From Peristeroidobacter agariperforans (GTDB taxonomy: Bacteria > Pseudomonadota > Gammaproteobacteria > Steroidobacterales > Steroidobacteraceae), in the NCBI RefSeq assembly GCF_004138335.1, contig NZ_RYFW01000002.1, positions 849,501-913,500 of the forward strand: a stretch of 64,000 nucleotides of DNA, in the 5' to 3' direction. A program made the translations under genes and the position numbers. Shown here one piece after another: positions 25,534 through 52,674 of the stretch. A model generated the notes under the pieces. The model did no database searches. It had not been told where the DNA came from and saw only the letters and a program-made list of their open reading frames with translations. Position 1 is the stretch's first letter; every line of letters begins with the position of its first letter.

Positions 25534-26523
25534 ATGCGGAATGATGGGCGGACTATTGCGGGTGTCGCATACGGTATCGGGGCGGGCGCGCTGTGGGGGC
25601 TGGTGTTCCTGGCGCCGGAGCTCGTGCCGGAGTTCGGGCCGTTACAACTGACGATCGGTCGCTACTTTTTCTACGGCCTGTTCTCCCTCTGCCTGATCGC
25701 GCCGATCTGGCACAAACTCAAACCGCTGCTGGGGCGGCGTGAGTGGATTGCGTTGGGATGGCTGGCGCTCACGGGCAACGTGCTCTATTACATCCTGCTG
25801 TCGAGTGCCGTTCGCCTCGGCGGTATTGCAATGACGTCTCTGGTCATTGGGTTTCTGCCGGTTGCCGTCACCATCGTCGGCAGCCGCGATAAGGGCGCGG
25901 TGCCGCTACACCGTTTGCTCCCATCTCTTGCGCTCAGCGCGCTCGGCGCGGTCTGCATCGGATGGCAGGCGCTCGCTGGGCCAGCTTCTGAGTCCGTGCT
26001 GACTCAAGTGGTCGGACTGCTTTGTGCCGTGGGAGCGCTGATCTCCTGGACGTGCTACGCCGTCGGAAATCGCCGCTGGCTGGTGCGACTCGACCATGTG
26101 TCGCCGCATGAGTGGAACATGCTCACTGGCGTGGTGACGGGAGCGCAAGTGGTTCTGCTGATTCCCCTGGCATTCGTGCTTGCCACCGAATCGCATGCGA
26201 CGCTGGCTTGGGCGAAACTCGCGGGTGTTGCCGCGGGTGTCGCGATCTTATGCTCCATGGTCGGTAACGCGTTGTGGAATCGCATGAGCAAACTGTTGCC
26301 GCTCACGCTGGTCGGTCAAATGATTCTATTCGAAACGCTGTTCGCGTTGATCTATGGTTTTCTGTGGGAGCAGCGCCTGCCCACCGCGCTCGAGTATGCG
26401 GCGTTTACGCTGGTAGTGCTCAGCGTTGTTTCATGCCTCGCTGTGCACGCAAAGCCTCGCAGTAACGTCAGCCACGCAGCAGCGCCGCCATACTCCGACG
26501 CTCATTCCCAAAGGGGCTCATGA
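25534..26523 (+). CDS. EamA-family (DMT superfamily) transporter
   Basis: 329 residues with ten hydrophobic helices in two repeated halves, as in the drug/metabolite transporter superfamily. The first half opens GVAYGIGAGALWGLVFLAPEL. The second half includes LISWTCYAVGNRRWL and ends LEYAAFTLVVLSVVSCLAVHA. GGAGG lies 5 bases before the ATG. Its last 56 bp overlap the end of the convergent acyl-hydrolase gene. It may export a metabolite; a role in the neighbouring PKS cluster is possible but not shown. Confidence 0.88.
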   Translation: MRNDGRTIAGVAYGIGAGALWGLVFLAPELVPEFGPLQLTIGRYFFYGLFSLCLIAPIWHKLKPLLGRREWIALGWLALTGNVLYYILLSSAVRLGGIAMTSLVIGFLPVAVTIVGSRDKGAVPLHRLLPSLALSALGAVCIGWQALAGPASESVLTQVVGLLCAVGALISWTCYAVGNRRWLVRLDHVSPHEWNMLTGVVTGAQVVLLIPLAFVLATESHATLAWAKLAGVAAGVAILCSMVGNALWNRMSKLLPLTLVGQMILFETLFALIYGFLWEQRLPTALEYAAFTLVVLSVVSCLAVHAKPRSNVSHAAAPPYSDAHSQRGS

Positions 26524-27403
26524 TCGCGTGCGCAGTCGATTGCGAATCTGGCGGCAGGCAGTATTTCGTGAACGTTGCCAACGTCCCCGCGGGCCCGACG
26601 TCGATGTAGCGGTGCGCGCCCCGTTGCTCCAGCGCAGCGATCGTGTCTTTGAAGCGGATCGGTTCGCGCACGACGCGCCAGAAGAAACCATTCGGTAGCC
26701 CGGTCAGCAACGTCGCTTCCCGAGAACATGTCAGCGGCAGCGTGCCAGGAGAGCAACGAATCGAGCTCATGAAGGACTCGAATGGCGCGCGAGCATCGTC
26801 GATCCACTGCGAGTGAAACGCGTACGAAACCGGCAAACGTTGGTAAACCACGTCGTGCTCGCCGAGCGAGCGTTCGATCTGTGTCAGATGGGCTTGGGGC
26901 GCAGAGACCACGATGTGCGAAGAGAAGTTGACTGCGGCCAGCTCGCTCCGCTCACGAAGATACGGCTGCGCATACAGGGTCTGATCCGCCAGCACCGCGA
27001 TCATGCCACCCCGATCGCAGCAAGCCTCGAATGCCGCAGCCTGTTGAACTACGGCTGACAGGGCATCTTCGACTTTTAGGAAGCCTGCCAACGTTGCCGC
27101 TGCAAAAGAGCCCAGGCTGGCGCCGAGGGCGATGTCGGGCTTCAGGCCGGCGTGAATCAGACTCTGCGCCAGCGAATACTCGACCATGAATATTGCCGGA
27201 TGAGTCTGCAACGTGCGATCGAAGCTGTCGCGATCGCGTGGCGAGTAAATGGCATCTACGACACGCTCGCCGCACAGGGATGACGCCAGATCGTCCAGGC
27301 GCAGCATCCATTCGCGAAATACCGGGTCGTGTTCGAACAGGTCCTGACCCATTCGAAAGTAGTGCGAGCCCTGGCCGGAAAACATGAAGACGGTCTTGCG
27401 CAT
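26468..27403 (-). CDS. Trans-acting acyltransferase-fold enzyme, probably acyl hydrolase (proofreading) of the PKS
   Basis: 311 residues of the FabD fold starting MRKTVFMFSGQGSHYFRMG. The nucleophile is Ser96 in GASLGSF and the catalytic His197 is in SYAFHSQW. In malonyl transferases an Arg follows the nucleophile by about 25 residues and binds the malonyl carboxylate (Arg117 in FabD). Here the aligned stretch is VVQQAAAFEAC, with Gln121 in that position. Together with the GASLG motif this favours the acyl-hydrolase branch of trans-AT systems (PedC type), which clears stalled chains, rather than malonyl loading. The start at 27403 follows GGGGAG. It is divergent from the PKS operon. Confidence 0.72.
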   Translation of the reverse strand: MRKTVFMFSGQGSHYFRMGQDLFEHDPVFREWMLRLDDLASSLCGERVVDAIYSPRDRDSFDRTLQTHPAIFMVEYSLAQSLIHAGLKPDIALGASLGSFAAATLAGFLKVEDALSAVVQQAAAFEACCDRGGMIAVLADQTLYAQPYLRERSELAAVNFSSHIVVSAPQAHLTQIERSLGEHDVVYQRLPVSYAFHSQWIDDARAPFESFMSSIRCSPGTLPLTCSREATLLTGLPNGFFWRVVREPIRFKDTIAALEQRGAHRYIDVGPAGTLATFTKYCLPPDSQSTAHAIMSPFGNERRSMAALLRG

Positions 27404-27420
27404 CGCGAACTCCCCGCGAT

Positions 27421-27460
27421 TGACAGTACACCGCATCGGCGGATGACGCAGCTACTGTCA
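27421..27460. promoter_or_regulatory. Long-spaced inverted repeat in the divergent PKS promoter region
   Basis: TGACAGTA and TACTGTCA are perfect 8-bp arms, 32 bp from start to start, in the 198-bp gap between the acyl-hydrolase and the PKS operon. A TTGACA (27420-27425) overlaps the left arm and would suit a -35 box, but no good -10 follows. Three turns of spacing would suit a regulator binding two half-sites. No other feature was seen in this gap. Confidence 0.4.
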
Positions 27461-27958: not shown

Positions 27959-28000
27959 CACCTCACACAACGGGCAAGGGAAACATCTGGGGAGCACGTC

Positions 28001-28207
28001 ATGGATATGCAGGTTGACGACGACATCGAGACCGCGGAGCACGACTACTGGCGTGTGCTGCGGATGTTGAGAAGCTTGCCCGATCAATGCGCCCTGGATG
28101 TAGGCGATCTCGCAGACCAGATCGGCGCGGACAAGCTGGAGCTGATCCAGTGGGTCAGGGCGGACATAGCGTTCGCGCGCCTGATCGAATCGAAAGTAAC
28201 CAAGTAA
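28001..28207 (+). CDS. Small acidic helical protein of unknown function
   Basis: 68 residues, ATG at 28001 with GGGGAG 7 bases upstream. It has ALDVGDLADQIGADKLELIQWVRAD, which looks like a helix-turn-helix-type segment, but the protein has no further recognised domain. It lies 43 bp after the Ead/Ea22-like gene and 66 bp before PKS A, in the same direction, so it is probably transcribed with the cluster. It could be a small regulatory or scaffold protein. Confidence 0.6.
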   Translation: MDMQVDDDIETAEHDYWRVLRMLRSLPDQCALDVGDLADQIGADKLELIQWVRADIAFARLIESKVTK

Positions 28208-28272: not shown

Positions 28273-31200
28273 ATGATCGATAACGAGCAGCTGGTTGAGC
28301 TGACCGAGTCCTATCTGAAGTCGCTGGTACGGACGGCGGTCGGCTCGATGAGCGCGGATTTTGCGTCGACGGCGCCGTTCGGCGAGCTGGGCATCGATTC
28401 GTTTCGCGTCCTGAAGATCATCAAGGCGCTGGAAGCGGACTTCGGCCGGCTGCCGAAAACCCTGCTGTTCGAGAACTTCAACATCGCCGACCTGGCGCAG
28501 TACTTCGTCGCCAGGCACGAGCAAACATTGCGTGCCCGGTTGTCGTCGCAGTTGAAACAGCCCGTCCAAGAGTGCGCGCCGGCTCCTGAGCCTGTCGTAA
28601 CGCCGAAGCAATCTGCGGAACGGGTGAAGCTGCGGCCCGCGGCGCAGCCTGTCCTCATGCTGGAGAGCGATGCCTGCACGCATCCGGAGCTCGGGCCGGT
28701 TGTTCGAAACATCTTCGAGCAATACAAGAACGAGGGATCGGTGTCCCGCGGCACGAGGAACATCGCTCCGAACCTGTTCATCGGCAGCGAGCGTCGCGGC
28801 TTTTTCCATTACAGCCGCAGCAACGACATCATCCTTGCCTACACCTACACCGGCCCGAGAGATTACTTCCCGGCGCTCGCGAAGGAGTTGTACGAGCACT
28901 GCGCCAGCCGGAAGCTCAGCGTCAACATCGTGTACGACGAAGAGACGCCGTCGATCTGCGGCATCCCGTTCACTTCGACACCGTTCGGCGCTCTGCAACG
29001 CGTCCTGGGATTGCAGCAGTTCACGCTCGACGGCAAGGCCATGCGCCGGCTGCGCTATCAGGTCTCGAAGTTCGAGAAGGCCGGCAACTGTCGTACCGAA
29101 GAATTTCGCTGCGGCTCCAACGACGGCGTGGCTCGTGCCATCGCCACCGTCATCGATCAATGGTGCGCGGCGCGTACCATGGTCAATCCGCTCATTCACA
29201 TCGTCAAAGACGAGATCCTCGCCGGCACGCTGGATCCGAAGCATCGCATCTTCGTGACCTATCTGGATGACGTGCTCCAGAACGCGATCCTGATCTCGCC
29301 GCTGGCTGCCGAACAGAACGGCTATTTGATGGATCTGGAGTTCTATCCAGACAGCATGCCGCTGGGCGGGTTGGAGTTCACGATCGTCAAGATCGTCGAG
29401 CGGCTGGTTGCCGAAGGTTGCGATGTGTTGAGCCTGGGCGGCACCTACGGCTGCAAGCTCGGCGACTCGAGCGTTCCGGACGCCGCGGTCGAGAAGATCC
29501 TGGATGATCTGCGCATGCAGAACATCTTCAATGACGAAGGCAATCTGCAGTTCAAGAACAAGTTCCGGCCGGAGAACAAGCCCATCTACTTGTGCCGGCC
29601 GCAGGGCCAGCCGAACGCCGATGAAGTTCTCGACATCATCATGATGATCGCAGACCCGATGAAGATGCAGACGTCGGACGCCGAGAATCATCTGGGCGCC
29701 GACACTGCCGCCGTTGTCGAGAACGCGCTGATCATCGAAGGCGAGGCGCGATCTGCCGATCTGCTCCAGTGCGGTTTCAACCCGCTCAATCTGTTGCCGC
29801 AGCAGGTCGAGTTCGACCTGAAGACGGATTCGTGGGCGCAGCTGCGCCTGCCGGCGATCGACAATCAGCGCAGGCTCCTCAGCGCGCAGTTGAATCAACG
29901 TGTCGATCTCGGCGCGACGCTGGCCGATCTGTTTCCGTTCGCTCACTTCGCCCTGACCACGTCCGGGCGGACGGCCGAGAGCGTTTTCTGTAGCGTTTGG
30001 CCGCGCAAGGGCGTCGTTCTGCAAAACCTGTTGTTTCCTACGACGCTCTTTCACCAGATGGACAACGCCCTGGTGCCGACAGAGCTGCCGCACGCGGAAG
30101 TGTTTCGGCTCGATTCGTCGCACTTGTACAAGGGCGACATGGATTGGGCGGCGCTGCAAAGGGAAGTATCGCGAGATCCAGCGGCGGTCGCGTATGTGTG
30201 CATCGAGGTCAGCGACAACGCAGCCGGCGGCCATCCTGTTTCGATCGAGCATCTGAAGCGGGTCAAGCAACTTGTCAAAGACGCGTCCATTCCGCTGGTG
30301 CTGGACGGCACGAGGATCATCGAGAACGCTTACTTCGTCATCGAGAACGAGCCGGGTTACGCCGGTAGAACGCTCTGGAGCGTAGTCCGCGAGATTCTGG
30401 GATATGCCGACGCCGTCCTGCTGAGCTTTGGTAAGAACTTCTGTGTGACTGGCGGGCTGATCGCCGTCAACGACGGGCAGTTGTTCCAGCAGGTGCAGGA
30501 TCGCATCCGCGCGCAAGGCTGCGGGTTGAGCGGTGTCGACAGGAAGCAGCTCGCGCTGGCCCTCCGCAGGCGCGAGTACATCGAGAGCCAGACATCGCGT
30601 CGCAAGCAGTCCGTGCGACGGATCTGGGACGCGCTGAAGGAGCAGGGCATTCCAGTCGTGCAGCCCGCCGGGGCGCATTGCATCTTGATCGATGTCAAGC
30701 AAGTGCCCGAGTTCCGGGACTTCAAACATCCCGTTGCATCGTTTCTGGCCTGGCTGTTCCTCAACACCGGCATTCGTGGAGGCGCGCACAACGCCGGGAT
30801 GCAGAGGAACACGGCGATCAACGATCTGGTTCGCCTGGCGATTCCGGTTGGGCTGTCGATGGAGCAGGTCGACTCGATCATCGAGAGGCTGGTCGAGCTG
30901 TTCGCTCAGCGCAGCAACATCCCTGAGCTCGCTTCGGTGCAAGACTCCGCCGACTCCGTGGGCGATATTCACGGCCGATACAAGCTCGTCAGGTATCACA
31001 ATGCATCGGGGCGGATCGTCAGCTCGATCGCTTCGTCGCCGCGCGAGCCGATCGTCCCGGCTCCCGCGGAACAGACAGTGCCGGGGTCATCGCGTGACGT
31101 TCCGACTCAGGACATAGCTATCGTCGGCATGGCGGGGCGCTATCCGCAAGCGAACAACTTGCAGGAGCTGTGGCAGAGCCTAGTGACAGGCAAGGACTGC

Positions 31201-34200
31201 ATCGAGTCCATTTCCGACGCGCGCCTGGCCCTTCGCTCGCCCAGCCAAGGTGGCGAGAAGTATCGGGGCGGATTCATCGCGGACGTCGACAAGTTCGATG
31301 CTCGCTTCTTCAACATTTCGGCGCGCGAGGCGCAGGTCCTGGATCCGCAGGAGCGCTTGTTCCTCGAAGTCGCCTACGAAACGCTGGAAGACGCGGGCTA
31401 CTACCCTGAATCATTGATTCGCGAGCGCAGCCGAGAAGTCGGCGTGTTCGTCGGCGCTGTGTGGTCGATGTACCAATTGCTCGGGCTCGAGGAGCGCATC
31501 GGCGGAAACCTCGTCAATCCAAGCTCCTTCTTCTGGAGCATTGCTAACCGCGTCTCGCACTGGATGAACTTCTCGGGCCCGAGTTTGACCGTCGACACTG
31601 CCTGTTCCGCGAGCTTGACGGCGCTGCACCTTGCTTGCGAAGCGATTCGACGCGGCGAATGTTTCGCGGCCCTCGTCGGCGGCGTGAACCTCGATTTGCA
31701 CCGGGCCAAGTTCGACCTCAACTCGGCGGGCGGGTCTTTCTCTCGCGACGGCGTGTGTCGCTCGTTCGGCAAGGGCGCGAACGGCTACGTCTCCGGCGAA
31801 GGCGTCGGGGCGGTGTTACTGAAGCGGCTGGATCAAGCGATCGCCGACGGCGACAACATCCATGGCGTCATCAAGAGCGTGGCCGTCACACACAGCGGTC
31901 GCACCAGCGGCTACACCGTTCCCGGTCCGCAATCGCAGAGCAAGCTGATACTGAAGGCCCTACAGCGCGCCGATATCGATGCGCGCAGCATCGGTTACAT
32001 CGAAGCACATGGGACCGGCACGGATCTCGGTGACTCCATCGAGATCGCCGGACTCACTCGCGCCTATCAGGAACACGGCGTCGCGAAGCAGAGCTGTCCC
32101 ATTGGCTCCGTAAAGACAAACATCGGCCATCTGGAAGCGGCGTCAGGCATCGTCGGTATGCAGAAGGTGCTGCTGCAGATGAAGCATCGCACGCTGGTGC
32201 CTTCGCTGCACTCGGTCGAGCTGAACGAAGGCATCGACTTCGCCGGATCGCAGTTCTATGTCCAACAGCGAGTGGAGGAGTGGGCGCCGCGAGAACTGGA
32301 TGGCGTGCGCCTTCCACGGCGCGCCGGACTCAGTGCAATCGGCGCGGGCGGAACGAACGCTCATGTCGTTCTCGAGGAATACAAGCATGCACCTCGAATC
32401 GATCAGCTCAACGGTCGCGGCGATCGGATTTTCCCGTTGTCAGCGGAGAGTGGGATACAGCTGCGCGAAGCAGCCGTTCGCTTGCATGGCTTCCTCAGCA
32501 AGCGCCCTGGCTATGACGCTGACGATGTCGCGCATACATTGCAGGTGGGCCGAAAGTCCTTTGATTTTCGCCTGGTTGTTTTCGCAAGCGATCTGCACGA
32601 TCTGGCGAACAAGCTCGACGCCTATCTGCAGGGGCGACATGAGGACGCAGTGACGAGCGGCTGCGTGAAGAATGCCGCGAGTGTCACCGGGCTGTTGAAT
32701 GCCACTGAGAAGCAGGAGTTCATCGAGCTTTTGGTTCGTAGCGGCGATCCGCGGCGCCTGTCGCGGTTATGGTGCGACGGTGTGATACCGGAATGGCGGG
32801 GCTTGGCTATCGCGCAGGCAGGAAGGAAGGTCTCGCTGCCTACTTATCCGTTCGCAGGCCAGCGCTACTGGCTCACGCAGCAGGAAGCCCAGCCGGACAT
32901 GCCGGTGACGCCTGTCGATGCCGAACCTGTCGCCAAGATCAGGCGAACCGAGAAATATCACTTCTCGTTCGGCGCCGAGTCCTCGCCGGCTGGAGGCCTC
33001 AAATTGGGCCTGGAAGACAGGGTCCGGCTGTTCGTGCGGCATCTGATCGCCAGCCAACTGCGCATCGGTATCGAAGAGATCGAGGACAGCCGCCATCTGA
33101 TGGAGACGGGCATCACTTCGCTGGACATGGCGGAGATCACCCAGTCGATCAAGCTTGGCGTCGACGAAGATTTCTCACCGATCGTCTTCTTCGAGTGCAC
33201 GACCATCCGATCGTTTGCGGAACTGCTGGCTCAGCGCTACGGCTCAGCCTTCGAGAAGCTGACCGTCACGCGATCGACCGTCGAGGAGGGCGAGACGGTC
33301 GTGCCGCTGAGAAGGAAAGCCGAGCCGACACAGGTCCCGGCATCGTCTCACATTCCTCTGCACGTCCACGATGCGAATGCCGATCTCGCGCTGGGCGACC
33401 TGAAGGCGCTCATGCCCGCACACCCAGGGAAGGCGCAACGATTGTTTCTGACCGGCGCCACCGGGTTCCTTGGCATCCATGTGCTTGCCGAGTTCTTAGG
33501 TGCAGATCCAGATGTGACTGCCTACTGCCTGGTGCGCGCGGCGTCCAAGGAGCAGGGGCTGCAGCGCATTCTGAAGCAGGCTGCGAAGTTCGAACTGGAT
33601 ATCGACGAGTCGCGCATCACCGTGGTGTGCGGGGACATCGGCGAACCGAAACTCGGATTGTCAGCGGAAGATTGGACGCTGTGTGCCCGTGAGGGGCAGC
33701 AGATTGTGCACGCCTCCGCGCGTGTGAACCATATCGAAGGGTACGCAACCTTCCGCGATTCCACGCTCGGCATGAAGGAGATCATCCGCCTCGCCAGCAG
33801 CGATCGGCTGAAAATGATCCAGTTCGTCTCCAGCATCGCCGGCTGCGCGCTGAAGATCGGCGAAGAGTTCTCGATCTACGAGAAAGAGGACTTCGTCGAG
33901 GCCGGCGCGCAAGTGTACGGCGGCTACGGCCAGTCCAAGTGGGTACAGGAAGCGCTGCTGAGGCGCGCCGCCGAGAGCGGCGTTCCCTATGTGATTTACC
34001 GGTTCGGCGAGCTGTCCGGCTCGGCCCGCACCGGGCTCGGGCAGACCGATGACATCGTGCACCGTCTGCTGCAGATGAGATTGGCGGTCGGGTGCAGAGA
34101 GAAGGTGTCGAACGATGTGCTCGACATGCTGCCCGTCGACTTCGCCGCTCGGCTGATCGTGAACACGGGCAACAAGCCGGAGTTGTGGAATGCGATTCTG

Positions 34201-34668
34201 CACGCGACCCATCTGAAGCCCTACAGCTTCGCCAACATGTATCGCCAGGCGCAACACCACGGGCTGCAATTCGCGCCGGTGACCCGCGCCGCCTACCTGT
34301 CACGATGCTATGACTTCGTCAGGTTCATTCATTCCATCAATCCCGTGAACGGCTTCGTGCTCGAGTGCGTGCTACGCGACGCGGAAGGGTCGGTGCGCAG
34401 TCGCAAGATGATGGATGCGTACTTTTCCGTGATCTTCCCGTTCGCTCAGGACAATTTCCGGCGCTCGTTGCAAACGTTGGGACTGTCGCTGCCCGAATGG
34501 GGCGCTTTGATCGACTCGTATTTCGCTCGCTGGAGCCGGGAAGACTGCGGGTTCATGGCCAGGATTTCCGAGTACCGGCGCTGGGCGCAACTGGAATCCA
34601 AAGCTAAAGCGGTGAGCAACAGCGCCGCTCGGGAAGAACTGCTGCTGGGAAAGGTCAATGGAGCCTAA
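28273..34668 (+). CDS. PKS A: ACP / DUF2156-like / tryptophanase-like PLP lyase / KS / ACP / thioester reductase
   Basis: 2131 residues. ACP1 (1 to 85) carries Ser43 in LGIDSF. Residues about 130 to 445 resemble the DUF2156/MprF-type acyl- or aminoacyltransferase fold (DGKAMRRLRYQVSKFEK, then LMDLEFYPDSMPLGGLEFTI and LSLGG). Residues about 490 to 885 are a tryptophan indole-lyase/tyrosine phenol-lyase-type PLP domain: SGR at 564-566, VSDNAAGGHPVS, VLDGTRIIENAYF, and Lys721 in LSFGKN as the predicted PLP lysine. The KS (945 to 1370) has Cys1111, His1246 and His1286. After the linker LPTYPFAGQRYW comes ACP2 (Ser1616). The C-terminus is a thioester reductase (1722 to 2131) with GATGFLG and Tyr1885-Lys1889. 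No AT is present. The TR suggests reductive release, so this protein may act last although it is encoded first. Confidence 0.88.
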   Translation: MIDNEQLVELTESYLKSLVRTAVGSMSADFASTAPFGELGIDSFRVLKIIKALEADFGRLPKTLLFENFNIADLAQYFVARHEQTLRARLSSQLKQPVQECAPAPEPVVTPKQSAERVKLRPAAQPVLMLESDACTHPELGPVVRNIFEQYKNEGSVSRGTRNIAPNLFIGSERRGFFHYSRSNDIILAYTYTGPRDYFPALAKELYEHCASRKLSVNIVYDEETPSICGIPFTSTPFGALQRVLGLQQFTLDGKAMRRLRYQVSKFEKAGNCRTEEFRCGSNDGVARAIATVIDQWCAARTMVNPLIHIVKDEILAGTLDPKHRIFVTYLDDVLQNAILISPLAAEQNGYLMDLEFYPDSMPLGGLEFTIVKIVERLVAEGCDVLSLGGTYGCKLGDSSVPDAAVEKILDDLRMQNIFNDEGNLQFKNKFRPENKPIYLCRPQGQPNADEVLDIIMMIADPMKMQTSDAENHLGADTAAVVENALIIEGEARSADLLQCGFNPLNLLPQQVEFDLKTDSWAQLRLPAIDNQRRLLSAQLNQRVDLGATLADLFPFAHFALTTSGRTAESVFCSVWPRKGVVLQNLLFPTTLFHQMDNALVPTELPHAEVFRLDSSHLYKGDMDWAALQREVSRDPAAVAYVCIEVSDNAAGGHPVSIEHLKRVKQLVKDASIPLVLDGTRIIENAYFVIENEPGYAGRTLWSVVREILGYADAVLLSFGKNFCVTGGLIAVNDGQLFQQVQDRIRAQGCGLSGVDRKQLALALRRREYIESQTSRRKQSVRRIWDALKEQGIPVVQPAGAHCILIDVKQVPEFRDFKHPVASFLAWLFLNTGIRGGAHNAGMQRNTAINDLVRLAIPVGLSMEQVDSIIERLVELFAQRSNIPELASVQDSADSVGDIHGRYKLVRYHNASGRIVSSIASSPREPIVPAPAEQTVPGSSRDVPTQDIAIVGMAGRYPQANNLQELWQSLVTGKDCIESISDARLALRSPSQGGEKYRGGFIADVDKFDARFFNISAREAQVLDPQERLFLEVAYETLEDAGYYPESLIRERSREVGVFVGAVWSMYQLLGLEERIGGNLVNPSSFFWSIANRVSHWMNFSGPSLTVDTACSASLTALHLACEAIRRGECFAALVGGVNLDLHRAKFDLNSAGGSFSRDGVCRSFGKGANGYVSGEGVGAVLLKRLDQAIADGDNIHGVIKSVAVTHSGRTSGYTVPGPQSQSKLILKALQRADIDARSIGYIEAHGTGTDLGDSIEIAGLTRAYQEHGVAKQSCPIGSVKTNIGHLEAASGIVGMQKVLLQMKHRTLVPSLHSVELNEGIDFAGSQFYVQQRVEEWAPRELDGVRLPRRAGLSAIGAGGTNAHVVLEEYKHAPRIDQLNGRGDRIFPLSAESGIQLREAAVRLHGFLSKRPGYDADDVAHTLQVGRKSFDFRLVVFASDLHDLANKLDAYLQGRHEDAVTSGCVKNAASVTGLLNATEKQEFIELLVRSGDPRRLSRLWCDGVIPEWRGLAIAQAGRKVSLPTYPFAGQRYWLTQQEAQPDMPVTPVDAEPVAKIRRTEKYHFSFGAESSPAGGLKLGLEDRVRLFVRHLIASQLRIGIEEIEDSRHLMETGITSLDMAEITQSIKLGVDEDFSPIVFFECTTIRSFAELLAQRYGSAFEKLTVTRSTVEEGETVVPLRRKAEPTQVPASSHIPLHVHDANADLALGDLKALMPAHPGKAQRLFLTGATGFLGIHVLAEFLGADPDVTAYCLVRAASKEQGLQRILKQAAKFELDIDESRITVVCGDIGEPKLGLSAEDWTLCAREGQQIVHASARVNHIEGYATFRDSTLGMKEIIRLASSDRLKMIQFVSSIAGCALKIGEEFSIYEKEDFVEAGAQVYGGYGQSKWVQEALLRRAAESGVPYVIYRFGELSGSARTGLGQTDDIVHRLLQMRLAVGCREKVSNDVLDMLPVDFAARLIVNTGNKPELWNAILHATHLKPYSFANMYRQAQHHGLQFAPVTRAAYLSRCYDFVRFIHSINPVNGFVLECVLRDAEGSVRSRKMMDAYFSVIFPFAQDNFRRSLQTLGLSLPEWGALIDSYFARWSREDCGFMARISEYRRWAQLESKAKAVSNSAAREELLLGKVNGA

Positions 34669-38463: not shown

Positions 38464-41400
38464 ATGGATGACTTGCACGTCGTCGCCGCGGCTGCGGAGT
38501 TGAGCGAGCGGGGCTATATCGTTCGGCCAGCTGCCGAAAGCGACCTGCCTCGCCTGGTTCAACTCGAAGAGCTGTGCTGGCAGCACACACGCACCTCGCA
38601 GCAGCAGCTGCTAGCGCGCGTGCAGCGATATCCCGAGGGCCAGTTCGTACTGGAGAAATCCGGCCAGGTTCTCGGCGCCGTTTATAGCCAGCGAATCAGA
38701 GATGTTGCCGCTTTGGCGAGCCGGAGCGCGGCCGACGTGCATGAGCTGCACGACGCGTCGGGCTCGATCGTCCAACTGCTGGCGCTGAACGTCGATCCCG
38801 CGGTCCAGAATTTGAGTCTGGGCGATCAGCTGCTGGAGTTCGCGCTGCAGCGATGCGGTTCGATGGACGGCGTCGACCGAGTGGTCGGGGTCACGTTGTG
38901 CAAGCGGTTCGACTCGACCCACGGGCTCTCGTTCGATGACTACATCCATCGGCAGGACGGTCAGCAGGATCCGGTGCTGGCCCTGCATTGCTCGCATGGT
39001 GCGACCGTCGTTGGATCGATCGCGAACTACCGGCCTGAGGACGTGGCCAATCAGCACAATGGCGTGCTGGTGTCCTACGATATCCGACGCCGGCAGGTCC
39101 GGTCATCGACAAAGCAATCGGATACAGCGATTACGTTCGACCGGAAAGAGGTCGAGCGCTTCGTGCGCGCCGAAGTCGCGCGGATCATCGGCGACGAGCA
39201 AGGTTTCGACTCGACTCGCCCGTTGATGGAGATGGGCCTGACCTCGGCCGACCTGTTGCAACTCCAGTTGCAAATGCAGCGGCAGTTCGGCTGCACGCTT
39301 CGCCCTGGCTTTTTCTTCGAGCACAACTGCGTCGACAAGGTCGTTGCGTATTTCTCTACGGACGCGAAAGCGGCCCCAGAGAAGCAAGCTTCACGGCCAG
39401 CCTCGAAACAATCCAAGGGCATCGCGATCGTCGGCATGTCGTGTCGGCTGCCCGGCGGCATCGAAACGCCTGATGATTTGTGGGAGGTGCTGGCTGCCGC
39501 GGAGTGCATGATCGGCTCATATCCGAAGAGGAGAGGGAACTGGCCCTCGGCCGCAAAGTACCCGGGAATCGATCAGGGCGGTTACTTGGCGGATGGTGAC
39601 GCCTTCGACGCATCGTTCTTCCGCGTATCGCCGACGGAAGCGCAGATCACCGATCCGCAGCAACGCATTCTGCTCGAGCTCGCGTGGTCGTGCCTGGAAG
39701 ATGCCGGTGTGTTGCCCGCGCACCTGCGTGGCACGCGCACCGGCGTATTCGTCGGTGCGAGTAACTGCGATTACAGTCGACTGATCCAGACCGCGGGAGT
39801 CGAGACCGAAGCTCACCACGCCACTGGCAGCTCGTTGGCCATCATCGCCAATCGCCTCTCGTACTTCCTCGACCTGTCCGGCCCGAGCATGCTGATCGAC
39901 ACGGCGTGCTCATCTTCATTGGTGGCGCTCCATGCCGCCGTTCAATCCCTGCATGCGGGCGAGTGCGACAGCGCGCTCGTCGGCGGCGTCAATTTCATCT
40001 GCCATCCAGACCTGAGCGTGGCGTATCACAAAGCCGGCATGCTGGCGCGCGACGGTCGCTGCAAAGTGTTCGACGCACGCGCGAATGGGTATGTGCGTGC
40101 GGAAGGCGGCGTGATGCTGCTGCTCAAGCCTTTGAGCGAGGCCATCCGGGCGCACGACAATATTCATGCGGTCATCCGCGGCAGTGCTGTCAATCATGGC
40201 GGTCTCAGCGGCGGGCTGACGGTTCCCGATCCGAAGAAGCAGAGCGAACTGTTGATTGCGGCTTGGAATAGCGCGGGTATTTCGCCCCGCGAGCTGAGCT
40301 ACATCGAGGCTCACGGGACCGGCACGTCGCTCGGCGATCCTATTGAAGTTCAGGGAATACAAACAGCGTATTCCAGCCTGGTCGGCGTTAGCGCCGACAA
40401 GACCTGCGCAGTTGGCTCGCTCAAGAGCAATCTCGGCCATCTGGAATCGGCCGCGGGCATCGCCGGTGTCTTGAAGGTCGTGCTGTCGATGCAACATCGG
40501 CAGCTGCCGGGGCAACCGACGTTCGACCAGCTCAATCCGAAAATCATTCTGGATGACAGTCCCTTTTACGTCGCCGAGCGCCACCAGGGCTGGCAATCAA
40601 ACCAGCGGCGGCTGGCAGGCGTAAGCAGCTTCGGATCCGGCGGCGCGAACGCGCACTGTGTCGTGCAGGAATACGTGGCCGAAGCTCAGGATACGGCTCG
40701 CGTCGCCGGCGTCGATCATCTGTTCGTGATCTCGGCCGCCGATGAAACACGACTCCGCGCCTGCGCCAGAAAGATCTTCGATTGGTTGGAAACAAACGAG
40801 CCTGGCGAGCGCTTTGGCGACGCAATCTATACCTGGCAGGCCGGTCGCACCGCCATGAAGCGGCGCCTCGCGATCAAAGTCAGGGACGCGGCGGAGCTTC
40901 GCGCGAAGTTGCAACAATGGTTGGCCGATTCGAGCTGTCCTGCCGATGCATGGCTGGATGAGGTGAATTCGCGCGATCCAAGCGCCAGTCGCTTGTGGCA
41001 GGAGGAAGAGGGACTGCATCTCGTCGAGCGAGCACTCGCCGAGCGGAATCTCGGTCAGCTCGGCGCCTTCTGGACTTCAGGGGCCGATGTCGACTGGCGA
41101 AAGCTGTACTCCGCCGAACCACGGCGCATCAGCGTCCCCACTTATTCGTTCGCGAGAGAGAGTCACTGGATCAGCGTCCCCGAGATCGAGACAAACGAGG
41201 CTGCGGAGCTCCCATCTGCATCAGGTCATCTGTTGGTGACTCCGGTTTGGGAGTCAGCATCGACACAGGCGGCCGCGCACGAGGTCGGATTCCGCGAACA
41301 CCGAGTTCTGCTCTGTGAGTTGCCAGACGTCGATGCGGAAAAGATTCGCACGTCGACGCAGTCGAACTACTGCTCACATCTGCGAAGTCGTGCGGAGTCG

Positions 41401-44400
41401 ATCGAGGGGCGCTATGTCGACCACGCCCTCAAGTGCTTTGAGGAAGTGAAACGGATACTCGCCGATAAACCACGCGGTCGGGTATTGTTCCAGGTCGTCG
41501 TCCCGCAACAGCACGGCGAAACACTGCTCGCCGGCTTGTCCGGGCTGCTCAGCACGGCCACTCGTGAAAATCCGAACCTCATCGGGCAGATGATCCTCAC
41601 CGAAGCGGGGATCAACCACGACGCGCTCGCCACGCAACTGCGTCGTGAGAAGGATTCATCTCGCGATACGCTCGTCAAGTATTCGCAGGGGCAGAGGCAC
41701 GTCCTACGTTGGCGGGAAGTCGGTGCGGCGGATTCGTCCTTGCTGGCCTTCAAGCACGACGGTGTCTACCTCATCACCGGCGGCTTGGGCGGATTGGGCA
41801 GGGTGTTCGCGAAGGAAATCCTTCGCCACGCCGTCCAAGCCCGAGTGGTTCTGACGGGCCGTTCTGCGCTGACGGATAAACAGCAGCGGCGTCTCGATGA
41901 ACTCGCGCGGCTGGCTGTTGAGACGGGCGCACGTGCGCCGGAGTATCGGCAGTTGGATCTGGCCGATCTGACTCAGACACAAGCGGTCATCGAAGCGATT
42001 ACGGAGCAGCACCAGCGCATCGACGGCATCATCCATTGCGCGGGCATGATCTCGGACAGCTTCATCCTCAGAAAGACCGCGGAGGAGTTCAAACGAGTCC
42101 TCGAACCCAAGGTGACCGGAACGTCCAACCTGGACGCAGCGAGCAAAGACCTGCAGCTCGACTTCCTGGTGCTGTTCTCGTCTTTCACCAGCGCCCTCGG
42201 CAACGTCGGGCAGGCGGATTACGCGGCTGCCAACGGCTTCATGGATCAGTTCGCCGCGTATCGAAATCGTCAGGTCGATGCCGGGCAGCGGTACGGCCGC
42301 ACGCTGTCCATCCATTGGCCACTTTGGCAGGAAGGCGGAATGACGATGGACGCGGAGAGTGCAGAAACGCTCCGCCAGGCCACGGGCATTCAACCCATGC
42401 AGACCGCCATCGGAGTGCGTGCGTTTCACGACAGCCTGTTGTCGAGAAATGCGCGCACGATGGTGTTGGAAGGCGACGTACAAATGTTGCAGCAGACGCT
42501 CGCGCGTGCGAACGAAATCCAGGCGAGCACACTTCCAACGACATCCGCAACGACAAGCGCAGACCTGTTGCGCGAAGCGACTCTGAAGAGGATCAAGCAG
42601 CTGTTCGGCGAAGCTCTCAAGCTGCCGGCGGCGAAGGTGGATGCCGACGAGCCATTCTCGAGCTATGGCATCGATTCGATCCTGATCAATCAGATGAATC
42701 GCAAGCTGGCCGAGGTCTTCGGCGCTATCTCGAAAACGCTGTTCTTCGAGTACAGGACACTCGCAGAGCTCACGGCGCACCTCGTTCAAATGCACGCAGC
42801 AGGCTGCGTCGCGTGGACGGGATCGACGGCATCCTCGGGGGCGGTCGCTACGGTGACTCCCTCTCGCCGAGTCGAGGCGATCAAACCAAAGGTTCCGGGG
42901 ACGAGCGCCTACCGAAGAGAGCCCATCGCAATCATCGGTATCAGCGGCATCTATCCGCAAGCCGCCACGCTGGACGAGTTCTGGAAGAACCTCGAGAGTG
43001 GCCGTAGTTGCGTTAGCGAGATCCCGCCGGAGCGCTGGTCGCTCGACGGTTTCTATGTTCCGGACGTGGAGCAGGCGATTGCGCAAGGCAAGAGCTACAG
43101 CAAGTGGGGCGGATTCATAGAGCAGTTCGCGCAGTTCGAGCCGCTGTTCTTCAATATCTCGCCGCGCGAAGCGCTGAACATGGATCCGCAGGAGCGTTTG
43201 TTCCTGCAGGAAGCCTGGCGAGCGATGGAGAACGCTGGCTACACGCGCAACGATCTGAAGCATCGCTTCCAGCGCAAGGTCGGCGTCTTTGCCGGCATCA
43301 CCAAGACCGGTTTCGAGCTGTACGCGACGCCCGCAGCCTCCATCGAGGATGGCTTCTACCCGCGCACCTCGTTCAGCTCCGTCGCCAATCGCGTTTCTTA
43401 CTTCCTGGACCTCACCGGCCCCAGCCTGCCGATCGATACGATGTGCTCGTCGTCCCTGACGGCGATCCACGAAGCTTGCGAGCACATCAATTGCGGCGAC
43501 TGCGAACTGGCCTTTGCGGGCGGCGTCAACCTTTATCTGCATCCCGCGACCTATACCTGGTTGAGCTCGCAGCAGATGTTGTCTCGCGACGGTTTGTGTC
43601 GCAGCTTCGGCGCCGGTGGCAACGGCTACGTGCCCGGAGAGGGCGTTGGCGTCGTGCTGCTGAAGTCTTTGCCCAGCGCACTGCGCGACAACGACAGCAT
43701 TCACGGCATCATCCTGGCAACGCATGTCAATCACGGCGGCAAGGCCAATGGTTACACCGTGCCGAGCCCGAGGGCGCAAGCCGAGCTGATCAGCCGCGCC
43801 ATCGAAAAGGCCGGGATCAAAGCTGACGACATCAGCTATATCGAAGCCCACGGCACCGGTACCGAACTGGGCGATCCGATCGAGATCTCTGGGTTGCAGC
43901 AGACGTTTGCAGGCACATCGAAGCCTTGCTCGATCGGTTCGGCCAAATCCAACATCGGCCACCTGGAATCGGCCGCGGGCATCGCGGGGCTGACCAAGGT
44001 GCTGCTGCAGATGAAGCATCGGTCCATCGCGCCGAGCCTGCACGCGAGCCAGCTCAATCCAAATATCGATTTCGACAAGAGCGCGTTCCGGGTCAATCGC
44101 AGCTTGTCACCGTGGTTGGTCCGCAGCGACGACGGCAAGGAAGCCCCGCGCATTGCTGGAATTTCGTCCTTTGGTGCGGGCGGCTCTAATGCGCACATCA
44201 TCGTGCAGGAGTTCCCGGTCACTGCAACGTCTTCGAGCACACACGAGCCGCACGCCATCCTGCTGTCTGCCCGCACTTCGGAGCAGCTGAGACAAAGAGC
44301 GCGGGACTTGCTGGCTTTCGTTCAAGTCGAACGAGCTGCATTCGACCTACGCTCCATGGCCTACACCCTGCAAGTGGGACGGGAGGCGATGGAAGCGCGC

Positions 44401-47400
44401 CTGGGCATGCTCGTGAGTTCGGCCGATCATTTGGTCGACAAGCTGCAAGCGTTTCTTGCCGGCGAACAGGACATCGAGGACATCTATCTGGGCCAGGCGA
44501 AGAGCAACAAAGAAACCTTGCGGCTGTTCGGCGGTGATGAGGATTTCCAGGCGACGCTGGATCGTTGGCTGGCGCGCCACAAGTTTTCCAAGCTGCTGGA
44601 GCTGTGGGCCAAGGGATTGGATATAGAGTGGGACAAACTCTACGAGTCGGCCCGGCCGCGACGCATGGCGCTGCCGACGTATCCATTCAACCCGGAGCGC
44701 TACTGGATCGATGCCGTAGAAGGTGTGCGGGCGTGGGACGCACCAGCTGCACCTTCGATTGCGCCTGCAGCTCATCCATTACTGCACACGAATACATCCA
44801 ATCTCGATCGGCAAAGCTATAGCTCCGTCTTCAGCGGCGGAGAATTCTTTCTGCGCGATCACAAGGTTCGAGGCAGCAAGGTGCTGCCGGCCGTCGCCTA
44901 TCTGGAGATGGCGCGCGCGGCCGTCGAGCTCGCGTCCCCCAAGCAGGCCCGCGGACGCATTCTGGAATTGCAGCACACGGCCTGGTTGCAGCCGATTGCC
45001 GTGTCTTCGTCGACGGAAGTCAGCATCGCTCTGTATCTGAATGAAAGCGATCCGACAGAGATCGATTTCGAAGTCCAGTCTGCCGGGGCTGAAGCGATTC
45101 ATTGCCAGGGGCAGGCTCGATGGGTGGACGCGCACACGGTGCCGGGCATCGATATCCCGCAGCTCAAAGCCGAGATGAGGTTGGGACAATTGAATGTCGA
45201 GGAGTTCTATGGCCGCTTCACGCAGTCCGGCATCAGCTATGGACCGGCGCATCGAGCCATCACGGGGATTCATCTCGGCGAGGGGCAATTGCTCGCGCAG
45301 CTGACTCTGCCTGGTGCCGTCGAGTCGACGAGTCACTCCTATGTGCTGCATCCCAGCCTGATGGACAGCGCTTTGCAAGGCTGTCTGGCCTTGATTGGAG
45401 AGTCCGAGGGCGGTCCGCTTCTGCCATTCGAGCTAGACACGTTGCGCGTCGTCGCTCCGTGTACGTCCGAGATGTACGCATGGGTGCGTCGCTCGGATCA
45501 GCTCAAGTTCGATGTCGATCTGTGCGATCGCTTGGGCAACGTCTGCGTGGAGATGTCCGGCTTCGCTTCTCGTGCCCTGGATGCGGGGCTCGCGAGTAAC
45601 GCAGAGAACCAGGGGCTATTGTATCCGCTGGCGCCGATCTGGAGCCGAGTGCGCGCACAGCACGCCGGCGAGGGTCGGTACTCGCCGAACAACATTCTGT
45701 TGTTGGGCGAGGATGAAGCTCCGCTTGCCTGGCTGCGACAGTCATATCCGCAAGCCGAGTTCGTGCAGCTGCCCGCGAATGCGAGCATCGAGACCATGCA
45801 GGAGCTGCTCGAACCTCGCGCCTTCGAGCATCTGCTGTGGATTGCGCCGGACGTTCTGGCGGCGCAGGGCGAGGACGACATCGTCGCCGGCCAGGAACGG
45901 GGCGTGTTGACGGTCTTCCGAATCGCCAAGGCGTTGCTGAATTCGAATCGAGCCGAGCGGAGCCTGCACTGGACGCTCATCACACGCCACACCCAGAACG
46001 TCAGGAAGACTGATCGAATTGCGCCGACCCACGGTGCGGTCGCCGGCTTGGTGGGCAGCCTGGCGAAGGAATATCCAGAGTGGACTCTGCAGCTTTTGGA
46101 TGTCGACGACTTGCAGTTTGTCAGCGCCGAACAATGCCTGACATCGCCAGCAAACAAACAGGGCGATTGTCTGGCGCATCGGCAGGGAGAGTGGCTCGTA
46201 GAAGGACTGGCGCGGGTCGGCACATTGCCGGAGTCGCCGGCCGCGTATCGGCAAGGCGGTGTTTATGTCGTGATCGGCGGCGCCGGCGGCATTGGCGAGG
46301 TGTGGAGCCGCTTCATGGTCGAGCACTACCAGGCCCAGTTGGTCTGGATCGGCCGGCGTCCGCTCGACGCCGCGATTGAAGACAAGCTGCAGACGCTTGC
46401 CCAGCTCGGGCCTGCGCCACGATATTTCAGCGCCGACGCAACCCGGCAGGATTCGTTGCAAGCGACGTTCGAGCAGATCCGCGAAATCCATCCCAGGATT
46501 CACGGTGTCGTGCATTCCGCCATCGTCCTGCAGGATCAAAGCCTGTCGCGCATGGACGAGGCGACGTTCAGGAGCAGCCTCGCCGCCAAGGTCGACGTGA
46601 GCGTCAACATGGACGCCGTGTTCGGCAGCCTGGACCTGGACTTCATGTTGTTCTTCTCGTCGCTGATCTCGTTCACCAAGGCGCCCGGCCAGTCCAACTA
46701 CGCTGCGGGTTGCACTTTCAAGGACAGCTTCGCGCACAGCCTGGCACGGCGTCGCAGCTATCCGATCAAGATCATGAACTGGGGCTTCTGGGGCAACGTC
46801 GGCATCGTCGCGGCCGAGTTCTACAACCGTCGCATGCAGCAGATGGGCTTCGGTTCCATCGAAGCCCCGGAAGCGATGGATGCGCTGAGAACATTGGTCA
46901 GTTCGGACGTGAACCAGCTGGCGCTGGTGAAGGCCATCGATGTGCGTGCAGTTGAAGGCATCACCCAGCCTGAAACTATCGGCTACGCTTCGACTGGCGT
47001 CACCAATGTGCTGCCGTCGTTGCGAAAGCAGATCAGCTCGGGCGAGCCGCCCGCAGCGCTGAGCGAGAGCGTGCTGGCGCAAGATGTGATGGATCTGGCC
47101 GAACAGATCCTCGCGGCGAGTCTTCAATCCTTCGAGAGGGCGCGGATGACTGATCCGCTGCTCGGTCGATGGCTCGATGCGAGTGTCGAGTATCTGGCGC
47201 GTCAGGGGCGCACGTCGCACGCTAACGTAGAGGAGCTCTGGTCATCGTGGGCTGCGAACGAAGCGGTTTGGCAAGAGAATCCGAGCACGCGACCTCATCT
47301 GGAACTGCTCAAAGTCTGCTTGCGGGCGCTGCCCGAAATTCTCTCCGGCACGCGCAAGGCGGCGGACGTGATGTTCCCAGAGTCCTCGCTGCGCCTGGTC

Positions 47401-50400
47401 TCTGGTGTGTACGCCGGCAACGCAGTCTCGGACTACTACAACGGGGCGCTGGCGCAAACGCTGTGTGCGTGCATCAGGCAGCGCCGTCAGGCGGAGCCGT
47501 CAAGCAAGATTCGTGTCTTGGAAATTGGTGCGGGAACGGGCGGAACGACCAAAGCGGTGCTGCCGCTGCTGCGCGAGTTCGATGGTGCCATTGAGGAGTA
47601 CTGCTACACCGATCTCTCCAAAGCCTTCCTGATCCATGCGGAGGAACATTACCGGCCTGGATTCCCGGCATTGCGCACGGCGCTGTTCGATGCCTCGAAG
47701 CCGCTGTCGTCACAGGCGATGGCGGCGAATCAGTACGACTTCGTCATTGCGACGAACGTATTGCACGCGACGGCAGATATCCGGGAGACGATGCGCAACG
47801 CCAAGGCATTACTGAAGAAGCACGGCATCATCCTGCTCAACGAGATGTCCGAGTGGTCGCTGTTCAACCACCTGACGTTTGGGCTGTTGGACGGATGGTG
47901 GTTGTACGAAGACGCTGCGCTGCGCATTCCCGGCAGTCCTGGGCTGGCGCCAGAAACCTGGGGCAGAGTGCTGAAGGAAGAAGGATTCGAGAACGTCGCG
48001 CTGCCGGCCGAGCAGGCCCGTGCGTTCGGACAGCAGATCATCGTGGCGAGCAGCGACGGCCGAGTGCGGCAGCGAGTATCCAAGGCGCCGCAGGTGGTCG
48101 CAGGTGCATCGAGCAAGCGTCCGACGGTGGCGAAGCACGCGACGCCGGCATCGGGCAGCACCCTGGCTGACGTTCCTCGAACAGGGCTGTCCCTGCGCGA
48201 TAAGGCAGTGACGTATCTTCAAGGCGTCGTTGCAAAGGCGCTGCGCATGGAACCGTCGCAGTTGGAGCCCAGCCGCCCACTCGCCGAGTACGGCCTGGAT
48301 TCCATCGTCGTTGTCGGAGTCACCAGCCAGCTGCGACGCGCGTTCACCGGCGTGACGAGCACATTGTTCTTCGAGCTGCGCAGTATCGATTGCTTCGCCG
48401 ATTTCATTCTCGAGAACAAGAAGGAAGAGCTGATTGCGCTGATCGGCGGCGATGAGGGCGCGATTCCTGAGATCAAAGTCAGCGTCGAAACGCGTAGCGT
48501 CTCCCGACCCTCTCGACGAATTCGTCCGCAAGCCGCGACAGTGGCTACACCGACGCCCGCCGCGACTCCCACGGTGTTCGATGTCGCAATCATTGGCATC
48601 GCAGGTCGCTATCCGCAATCGGCGAACCTGAGCGCGTTCTGGAACAACCTGGCGAACGGCCGTAACTGTGTCACCGAGGTGCCCAAAGACCGCTGGGACT
48701 GGCAGGAATTCTTCGACGCAGAGCGCGGCAAGGCGGGCAAGATCTATACGAAGTGGGGCGGCTTCCTCGACCGCATCGACGGCTTCGATCCGTTGTTCTT
48801 CAAGATTGCACCCAGGGAAGCCAAGGCCATGGATCCTCAGGAACGGCTGTTCCTCGAGTCCTGCTATCACGCCATCGAAGATGCGGGATACACGCCCGCG
48901 AGCCTGGGCGACATCGACAAAGTCGGCGTGTTCGTCGGAGTGATGAACTCCCGGTATACGCCGCAGCCGCTGCACTATTCGATCGCGAACCGGGTGTCCT
49001 ACGTGATGAATTTCCAGGGCCCGTCGCTCGCCGTGGACACCGCCTGCTCCGCGTCCCTTACAGCGATCCACCTCGCCCTCGAAAGTATCTATAGCGGCTT
49101 GAGCGAATGCGCCATCGCCGGCGGCGTCAACCTGATCATCGATCCGGTGCACTACCTCGAGCTGTCCGCCTTGACGATGTTGTCGGCGGGGCAGGAGTGC
49201 AAGTCGTTTGGAAATGAAGCGGACGGGTTCGTCGATGCCGAAGGCGTGGGAGCCATCGTGCTCAAGCCATTGAGCAAGGCTGAGCGGGACGGCGATCACA
49301 TCTACGGCGTCATCAAGGGCAGTGCGCTGAATGCGGGCGGCAAGACCAACGGCTACACCGTCCCGAATCCGCAGGCTCAATCCGCCGTCATATCGAAAGC
49401 ACTTCGGCGTGCAAACATCGCCGCGAGCGAGATCAGCTATGTCGAGGCGCACGGCACGGGTACGGCGCTCGGCGATCCGATCGAGATTGCCGGTCTCACG
49501 CGCGCGTTCGAGCAAGCGCCGGGTGACAGGCAGTTCTGCGCCATCGGCTCGTTGAAGTCGAACATCGGCCACTGCGAGTCCGCGGCCGGCATCGCCGGTT
49601 TGACCAAGGTGCTGCTGCAGCTGGAGCACAAACAGCTGGTGCCCTCGCTGCACGCCGATGTGCCCAACCCGGAAATCGAGTTCGAGCGAACGCCGTTCAA
49701 AGTTCAACGGGCGCTGGAAGAGTGGCAGCGTCCACGGCGCGAGGTCGACGGCGTCAGCAAAGAGATCGCTCGCACGGCCGGCATCTCGTCATTTGGCGCC
49801 GGCGGAGCCAATGCTCACATCATCGTGCAGGAGCACGAGTACGCAACGGCGGTGAATGCAGCAGCCGGTGCAGTCATTGTTCCGCTGTCTGCCAGAACCT
49901 CTGACCAGTTGCGCACCAAGGCGTGCGATCTGCTCGACCTGCTGCGCTTACCAGATCAATCGTTCGACTTGCTCGCGACGGCCTACACGCTGCAGGTGGG
50001 CAGAGAGCCGATGGAAGAGCGGGTGGCGCTCGTGGTCGCTTCGATCGATGAGCTCGCGGCCAGGCTCGAGTCGTTTGTCGCAGGCGAGGCGGGCGAGGAA
50101 ACTCATCGGGGCCGGTTCAAGCGGAGTCACGGAAGGACAACGGCGCCGACCGGCGTAGATGAAGCCGTAGCGGACCGAAATCTGTCTCGCCTTGCGCACC
50201 TCTGGACTCAAGGCGCAGACATTGAGTGGGGCAAGTTGTACGGGGATGCGAAGCCGAGGCGCATCAGCCTGCCGGTGTATCCGTTCGCCAAGGAGCGCTA
50301 CTGGCGCGAGCGCACCGATGCGCCGACGAAGCTTTCGGTCGAGACCAGGTTGCATCCGCTCCTGCACCGAAACGTTTCGGGGGTGCGCCACTTGGGTTAC

Positions 50401-52484: not shown

Positions 52485-52674
52485 GGCATCATCCGCGGCG
52501 CGCTTTGTTATCTTGATTCCACTTCATAGCGTGACGCACGCGAATCGAAAGGGCGGAGCCTGCCCGATTCCCCCACGGTAGATGCGTCAACGACCGGCCG
52601 CGATTGTTCGCGCCGCGACCGAACCAGATCGTTCCTTTGTCCTGCTGGTCTTCGATCTCTCAAGGAGAGCCCCC

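Follow-up and report, generated by a model that had tools for sequence, protein, structure and literature searches.

What does a pyridoxal phosphate (PLP)-dependent lyase domain, fused to a domain of the MprF family, do inside a polyketide synthase (PKS)? The question is raised by PKS A, a trans-acyltransferase (trans-AT) PKS of Peristeroidobacter agariperforans. Its gene lies at 28273..34668 on the forward strand of the 64,000-nucleotide stretch analysed here (the window; NZ_RYFW01000002.1, positions 849,501 to 913,500) and encodes, in order, an acyl carrier protein (ACP1), a DUF domain, an SH domain, a ketosynthase (KS), a second carrier protein (ACP2) and a thioester reductase. The DUF-SH didomain proved to be homologous to the didomains of leinamycin-type PKSs, named after an antitumour compound that receives its sulfur through such a pair, and it probably serves to install sulfur.

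Identity and distribution of the DUF-SH didomain

A preliminary description of this DNA had placed a PLP lyase domain after an MprF-like domain in PKS A, and profile searches recovered both. The DUF half (28663..29676, +) matched Pfam LPG_synthase_C with 60.3 bits (cut-off 27.5), and the SH half (29692..30951, +) matched Pfam Beta_elim_lyase with 91.4 bits (cut-off 27). The same two families matched all six further didomains scanned, three of which were leinamycin-type. The limits first proposed for the didomain, 28660..30927, located it correctly, but the SH match ran on to 30951. The motifs listed for the lyase half (TSGR, DNAAGGHPVS, VLDGTRIIENAYF and SFGKN) were all found.

When plasmid records were searched by tblastn, 80 gave a match; in 4 of these, each from Streptomyces or Kitasatospora, it extended over 80% or more of the query. 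At loci L021, L023 and L024 the PKS was followed by LnmK-family and 3-hydroxy-3-methylglutaryl (HMG)-CoA synthase (HCS) genes, with carrier-protein neighbours too, while L022 was without annotation. The window didomain was 46% (DUF) and 38% (SH) identical to that of L021, and alignment of its DUF with leinamycin-type DUFs by hhalign gave a probability of 100% (E 7.9e-87). The order of parts was also shared: in the window, a homologous DUF stood directly before SH, and an ACP before DUF. No relative of the didomain was found in the viral contigs searched.

In a tree of 19 SH sequences, a branch with 100/100 support separated 14 PKS SH domains from all five free lyases. The PKS set consisted of eight sequences of the window's lineage (defined below) and six leinamycin-type sequences, counting that of genome G020 and PDB 9cen; the divergent sequence of genome G293 was left out. 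The leinamycin group, including G020 and 9cen, was supported at 100/99. PDB 9cen ('Polyketide Synthase Protein') was the best solved relative of the SH domain (206 bits), and presumably corresponds to the work of Steele et al. 2024 (10.1021/jacs.4c11656). From the identities to L021, the leinamycin-type neighbours of the matched loci and the DUF profile match, we concluded that the sequence comparison settles the stretch as a DUF-SH didomain homologous to leinamycin-type didomains, as the preliminary description had suspected from resemblance.

A pattern scan of named genomes returned 31 stretches, five of which encoded the didomain with 56-94% identity over its length. They belonged to S. agaridevorans (94%), two Massilia, Aliikangiella coralliicola and Chitinophaga varians. 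Whole-genome searches found the didomain in three of the 14 genomes that belong to the window's genus (E <= 0.001) and, at E <= 1e-60, in 3 of 398 genomes sampled from the phylum (the window's genome is included in both counts), in 1 of 79 genomes of the genus of C. varians, and in 2 of 98 of one family in the window's class.

Eight proteins, those of the window, S. agaridevorans, the two Massilia, Aliikangiella, Chitinophaga and genomes G003 and G563, began with ACP-DUF-SH-KS. This block was followed by an ACP and a thioester reductase release domain (TD) in Steroidobacter (the window and S. agaridevorans) and Massilia, and by further modules in Aliikangiella, Chitinophaga, G003 and G563. In a tree of 101 KS domains, the KSs that follow SH in seven of the eight, the window's included, formed one clade (SH-aLRT 100); the KS of S. 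agaridevorans was not put in this tree. The ACP1s grouped together in 98% of 200 bootstrap trees, with support of only 79/51 for their own branch, and a branch setting the SH domains of the eight apart occurred in 46% of the 200 bootstrap trees made for SH, which leaves the lineage unproven as a clade by SH. Lineage is therefore used here on the strength of architecture, identity, the post-SH KS clade (7/8) and the ACP1 group. On these grounds of sequence, a second DUF-SH lineage, with a single ACP before the didomain, is new here.

Two other loci stood apart from the eight. The didomain locus of G020 looked leinamycin-like. In G293 (L049 7799-13571) a divergent didomain, with 28.6% (DUF) and 29.5% (SH) identity, came after a protein with KS-DH-KR-ACP-ACP (DH, dehydratase; KR, ketoreductase); the two ACPs that end this protein before the DUF had Val or Ile at +3 and Glu at +5, and its SH had Thr where the others have Pro. 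The KS after its SH fell outside the lineage's post-SH KS clade. The G293 didomain is possibly a third kind.

The carrier protein, the feeder module and the proposed sulfur step

In the leinamycin family, Asp-1, Arg+3, Asp/Glu+5 and a helix-III Tyr are described as the marks of ACPs on which beta-branching takes place (PMC7618002). The first of the two tandem ACPs carried all four features in 4/4 leinamycin-type loci, and the second, which adjoins the DUF, had Met+3, Arg+5 and Phe in the sequences as printed. ACP1 of the window (28297..28512, +; phosphopantetheine serine in the motif GIDS, Ser105 of the longest open reading frame (ORF), 28399-28401) was without a Trp flag and without three of the four branching features, and no other ACP preceded the DUF. 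The lone ACP had Val+3, Lys+5 (Gln in Chitinophaga) and a helix-III Phe throughout the lineage (8/8), and Arg+3, Asp+5 and the helix-III Tyr occurred on none of the eight.

A tree of 25 ACPs was divided by a branch with 100/99 support. On the branching side were the four first-tandem ACPs, three Trp-flag ACPs of the window's cluster (from PKS C, D and E) and one ACP of G020; on the other side were all eight ACP1s and all four second-tandem ACPs. Of the three ACPs of G020, the first fell on the branching side, and the two closer to the DUF fell on the opposite side. The ACP1s also scored higher against the second than against the first tandem ACP of the same locus in 31 of 32 comparisons, with one tie. 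From the residues and this tree, ACP1 appears to correspond to the leinamycin ACP that adjoins the DUF and is not of the branching type, and nothing here answers to the branching one.

This correspondence bears on the leinamycin module itself. The role of its second ACP has been called elusive, and off-loading to the thioesterase (TE) was proposed (PMC7618002). Because the lone ACP of the lineage is of the same kind and no TE stands behind the didomain, the comparison suggests that the second leinamycin ACP is a partner of DUF and SH, used in sulfur installation rather than off-loading. As ACP1 corresponds to that ACP, ACP-DUF-SH looks like a conserved sulfur unit.

The chain reaching ACP1 would come from PKS E (contig C10, 933077-944794, outside the window), which ended in KR-ACP-KS-DH without a terminal ACP, while PKS A opened with an ACP. 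The same ending was found in both Massilia clusters, Aliikangiella and G563, thus in five of the seven clusters examined, that of S. agaridevorans being outside these seven. Compared with the DH of PKS E, those of the other four clusters scored 284-320 bits. The His and Asp motifs of the DH were present in the three feeder DHs checked. The five terminal feeder KSs formed one clade (SH-aLRT 100), apart from the four KSs of leinamycin-type last modules, G020 included (99).

Given an ACP1 of non-branching type and this conserved KS-DH feeder, sulfur probably adds to an enoyl chain made by the dehydratase. We consider it probable that the didomain puts sulfur on the growing polyketide chain, with a DH-made enoyl group on ACP1 as the acceptor, and that elongation then continues. 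The chemical steps below are proposals, built on what the sequence gave: domain identity and order, the PLP lysine, the carboxylate arginine, the kinship, the kind of ACP1 and the KS-DH feeder. The last KS-DH of PKS E and ACP1 of PKS A would make up one split module, following the idea of the dehydrating bimodule. The feeder KS would hand a beta-hydroxy chain to the DH, and ACP1 would receive the alpha,beta-unsaturated acyl chain from the KS-DH. With help from the DUF, L-thiocysteine (or cysteine) would add through its sulfur to the beta carbon, and the SH domain would use PLP to cleave the cysteine C-S bond, so that the chain keeps -SSH (or -SH). As is general in PLP chemistry, the cysteine remainder would depart as aminoacrylate and give pyruvate and ammonia. 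The next KS would add one unit on ACP2, and the reductase would release an aldehyde or alcohol. The product would be a 3-oxo-aldehyde, or the corresponding alcohol, with the thiol or persulfide at C5, and it could close a thiopyran-type ring.

By analogy, we infer that thiocysteine rather than cysteine is the sulfur donor. The SH domains of GnmT, LnmJ and WsmR are reported to be thiocysteine lyases that cleave the thiocysteine adduct 50-106 times more efficiently than the cysteine adduct (PMC8479088).

Several points weigh against this proposal. The missing branching features of ACP1 make no contrast with the DUF-adjacent leinamycin ACP, which is also without them. The feeder KS kept Cys-His-His in the three cases checked and could therefore also elongate; if it does, its module has no KR for the beta-hydroxyl that the DH needs. 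The feeder evidence stops in Chitinophaga and G003, where the contigs end before any feeder PKS. The SH domain was only 34-37% identical to the four SH domains of Streptomyces and Kitasatospora, which leaves room for cysteine as the donor. The five strong Cys_Met_Meta_PP genes in the genome say little about the supply of thiocysteine, as 14/14 control genomes have genes of this family. Even in leinamycin the role of the DUF is described as unproven (PMC8479088). Finally, genes for HCS, two enoyl-CoA hydratases (ECH) and KS0 lie downstream of the PKS genes in the cluster.

These last genes would have their place if the pathway followed leinamycin more closely, with the HCS enzymes building a beta-branched enoyl on ACP1, thiocysteine adding to it and the upstream DH idle. 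The donor ACP of such a cassette was not located in the cluster. Branching precedes sulfur addition in members of the leinamycin family (PMC7618002), and the leinamycin-type branching ACPs are also without the Trp flag. However, ACP1 has Val+3, Lys+5 and Phe in place of the Arg, Asp and Tyr of the branching tandem ACPs and groups with the second, non-branching one, and the E41R change in WsmR abolished HMG formation (PMC7618002). The Trp-flag ACPs in PKS C, D and E are available for the cluster's cassette, and the KS-DH feeder is kept in most of the clusters examined. Coupling of this kind is thus unlikely.

Residues of the DUF and SH domains

The preliminary description had also suggested that the DUF might load an amino acid from aminoacyl-tRNA, which fits its MprF family; nothing was found that calls for such loading. 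Against solved MprF chains the DUF scored about 18-26 bits (best E 3.9e-5), mostly in the C-terminal part. The motif F-K-x-K-F and one Asp were common to the DUFs and the MprF chains and were kept in 14/14 DUFs. The residues after the shared Asp differed: all 14 DUFs had D-x-E-F-Y where three aligned solved MprF chains have D-L-M-R.

Members of the MprF family use aminoacyl-tRNA as substrate (PMC8131360), and FemX, a double-GNAT relative, is described as having a single reactive lysine and taking tRNA as its donor (PMC12945691). With this kinship and the conserved F-K-x-K-F and Asp, the DUF might transfer an amino acid from aminoacyl-tRNA onto the chain or the carrier, for cleavage by SH. We regard this as improbable. 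The residues after the Asp depart from those of MprF, no tRNA synthetase was present among the 20 flanking proteins (Pfam for all; NCBIfam also for 10, among the best 25 matches), and adducts of free thiocysteine are substrates of leinamycin SH domains (PMC8479088). In addition, the SH domain keeps in 14/14 sequences the arginine of tyrosine phenol-lyase (TPL) that binds a free alpha-carboxylate; because of this arginine, it is unlikely that the DUF still binds tRNA.

In a more specific form of the idea, the DUF would be an aminoacyl-tRNA transferase put to new use, still taking its sulfur donor from cysteinyl- or persulfidated cysteinyl-tRNA. Persulfide is carried on cysteinyl-tRNA synthetase (CysRS). 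If true, this reading would mean that the translation machinery feeds sulfur to the PKS and would explain both the MprF kinship and the making of the leinamycin-type thiocysteine adduct. We give it little credence. The placement of the DUF in the MprF/LPG_synthase_C family provides a structural starting point for this domain, to which the prior accounts drawn on here assign no family.

That the didomain has decayed or lost catalysis and serves as a linker is very improbable, since dN/dS against S. agaridevorans was 0.09 (DUF 0.08; linker plus SH 0.10) and the active-site residues were kept. Together with the five related loci of the genome scan, this ratio shows that the didomain is no product of chance. 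The PLP-site residues Lys592, Asp549, Arg552, Asn520 and Arg725 (K257, D214, R217, N185 and R404 of TPL) were present in 14/14 DUF-SH sequences, as were E103 and G99 of TPL, and T49 was kept in 13. The PLP lysine (codon 30433..30435, +) is Lys592 in the numbering of P0001, Lys783 in the longest ORF (P0002) and Lys721 when counted from ATG 28273. Lys721 is the residue first picked out as the PLP lysine, and that number fits this start. The PLP pocket expected there was thus borne out by sequence, together with the grouping of SH with PKS SH domains.

The residues that handle the leaving group in TPL gave a different result. In TPL, Tyr71 is catalytic, Arg381 and Thr124 bind the phenol and Arg404 binds the free alpha-carboxylate. 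Tyr71 and Arg381 were kept in none of the 14 DUF-SH sequences, and Thr124 was Pro in 13 of them and Thr in G293; in the window the three positions (Tyr71, Arg381, Thr124) were Arg414, a gap and Pro460. The SH domain scored below all four curated cut-offs for tryptophanase and TPL: 205 of 285 bits (tryptophanase PRK13238), 163 of 720.7 (tyrosine phenol-lyase TIGR02618), 134 of 750 and 114 of 825.8. PRK13238 is the telling model, because two of the other cut-offs are so strict that an annotated Vibrio tryptophanase fails them too. With PRK13238 this tryptophanase scored 679 bits, a TPL 657, the window 205 and the leinamycin-type L021 145. TPL and tryptophanase thus share a sequence family and PLP-binding residues with the window SH, but differ in the leaving-group residues and are set apart by the 100/100 branch.

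Release of indole or phenol by a tryptophanase or TPL domain inside the PKS, raised in the preliminary description and favoured by the curated models matched and by 30% identity to a TPL, is hardly credible, and tryptophanase or TPL identity was ruled out by the cut-offs, the residues and the tree. Plain aminotransferase identity was rejected as well (Aminotran_1_2 23.9 bits, Beta_elim_lyase 93.6). By profiles, residues and tree, SH is best described as a PLP-dependent domain of predicted (thio)cysteine-lyase type.

Gene surroundings and comparison with known systems

The ORF of PKS A was open from 28087 and uninterrupted through the whole didomain stretch. ATG 28273, 62 codons into this longest ORF, is the likely start, because nothing at the beginning of the S. 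agaridevorans homologue matches the 62 codons before it, which also overlap a small ORF upstream. In that homologue the first start codon after the stop is at the place equivalent to 28273 (ACP match from residue 9). Two small ORFs, 27603-27959 and 28002-28207, lie directly upstream, and the second overlaps the apparent N-terminal extension. After SH follow the KS (31102..32406, +), with its Cys-His-His motifs intact, ACP2 (33007..33234, +), recognised by a domain match, and the TD (33427..34278, +), which matched Pfam NAD_binding_4 with 165.7 bits and reached 209.6 bits with TIGR01746 (cut-off 213.35). A free-standing acyltransferase, the trans-AT, adjoins PKS A on the reverse strand (26468..27436, -; Pfam Acyl_transf_1 113.9 bits). 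A scan of three upstream genes for defence genes found nothing.

The same cluster contains PKS B (38464..51216, +) and PKS C (53505..64000, +), the latter extending beyond the window, with ECH domains of the modular kind and a Trp-flag ACP some way after them. Both open with a GNAT-like region and a KS (38464-39108 in PKS B; from 53505 in PKS C), which makes two such starts; the two Massilia clusters showed one in the stretches read. Three similar-looking START-like proteins are encoded between the PKS genes (37006-37752, 37765-38442 and 52582-53451); of these, only the last matched Pfam START (24 bits, cut-off 22). The membrane protein at 51207-52439 resembles, by eye, a sterol desaturase or fatty-acid hydroxylase, and had no Pfam or NCBIfam match at E <= 0.001. 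Quorum control and antitermination are suggested by two genes outside the window, for a LuxI-type autoinducer synthase (L016:6346-6972) and a NusG-like protein (L016:5620-6300), which directly follow the KS0 gene.

The closest known systems are the leinamycin-type didomains of LnmJ, GnmT and WsmR (PMC8479088), which have the same two domains in the same order, the same kind of ACP before them and the same PLP residues. Their module, KS-ACP-ACP-DUF-SH-TE, stands at the chain end and has a branching first ACP. In the window, in contrast, a single ACP-DUF-SH opens the protein, with the KS-DH of another protein before it and a KS after it. In 2021, three families of DUF-SH clusters outside the leinamycin type were described (PMC8479088), and their modules are described as having one ACP and no TE (PMC7618002), as in the window; by this likeness, the window's lineage may be among them. 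No Steroidobacter or Massilia DUF-SH cluster was named in the published titles and abstract openings searched, though one may still be in print. The portions of the prior accounts drawn on here (PMC8479088, PMC7618002) mention neither an acceptor fed by a DH nor conservation of the KS-DH / ACP-DUF-SH-KS block, and do not liken a lone ACP to the second leinamycin ACP.

Where leinamycin-type PKSs install a hydropersulfide, this goes together with beta-branching of the chain end. The lineage described here points to the same sulfur toolkit acting on an ordinary enoyl chain, mid-assembly rather than on a branched end unit. A simple enoyl-ACP substrate makes the action of the DUF and the purpose of the second leinamycin ACP testable. 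If the toolkit does act mid-assembly on a plain enoyl, the didomain may lend itself to more settings than leinamycin alone would lead one to expect.

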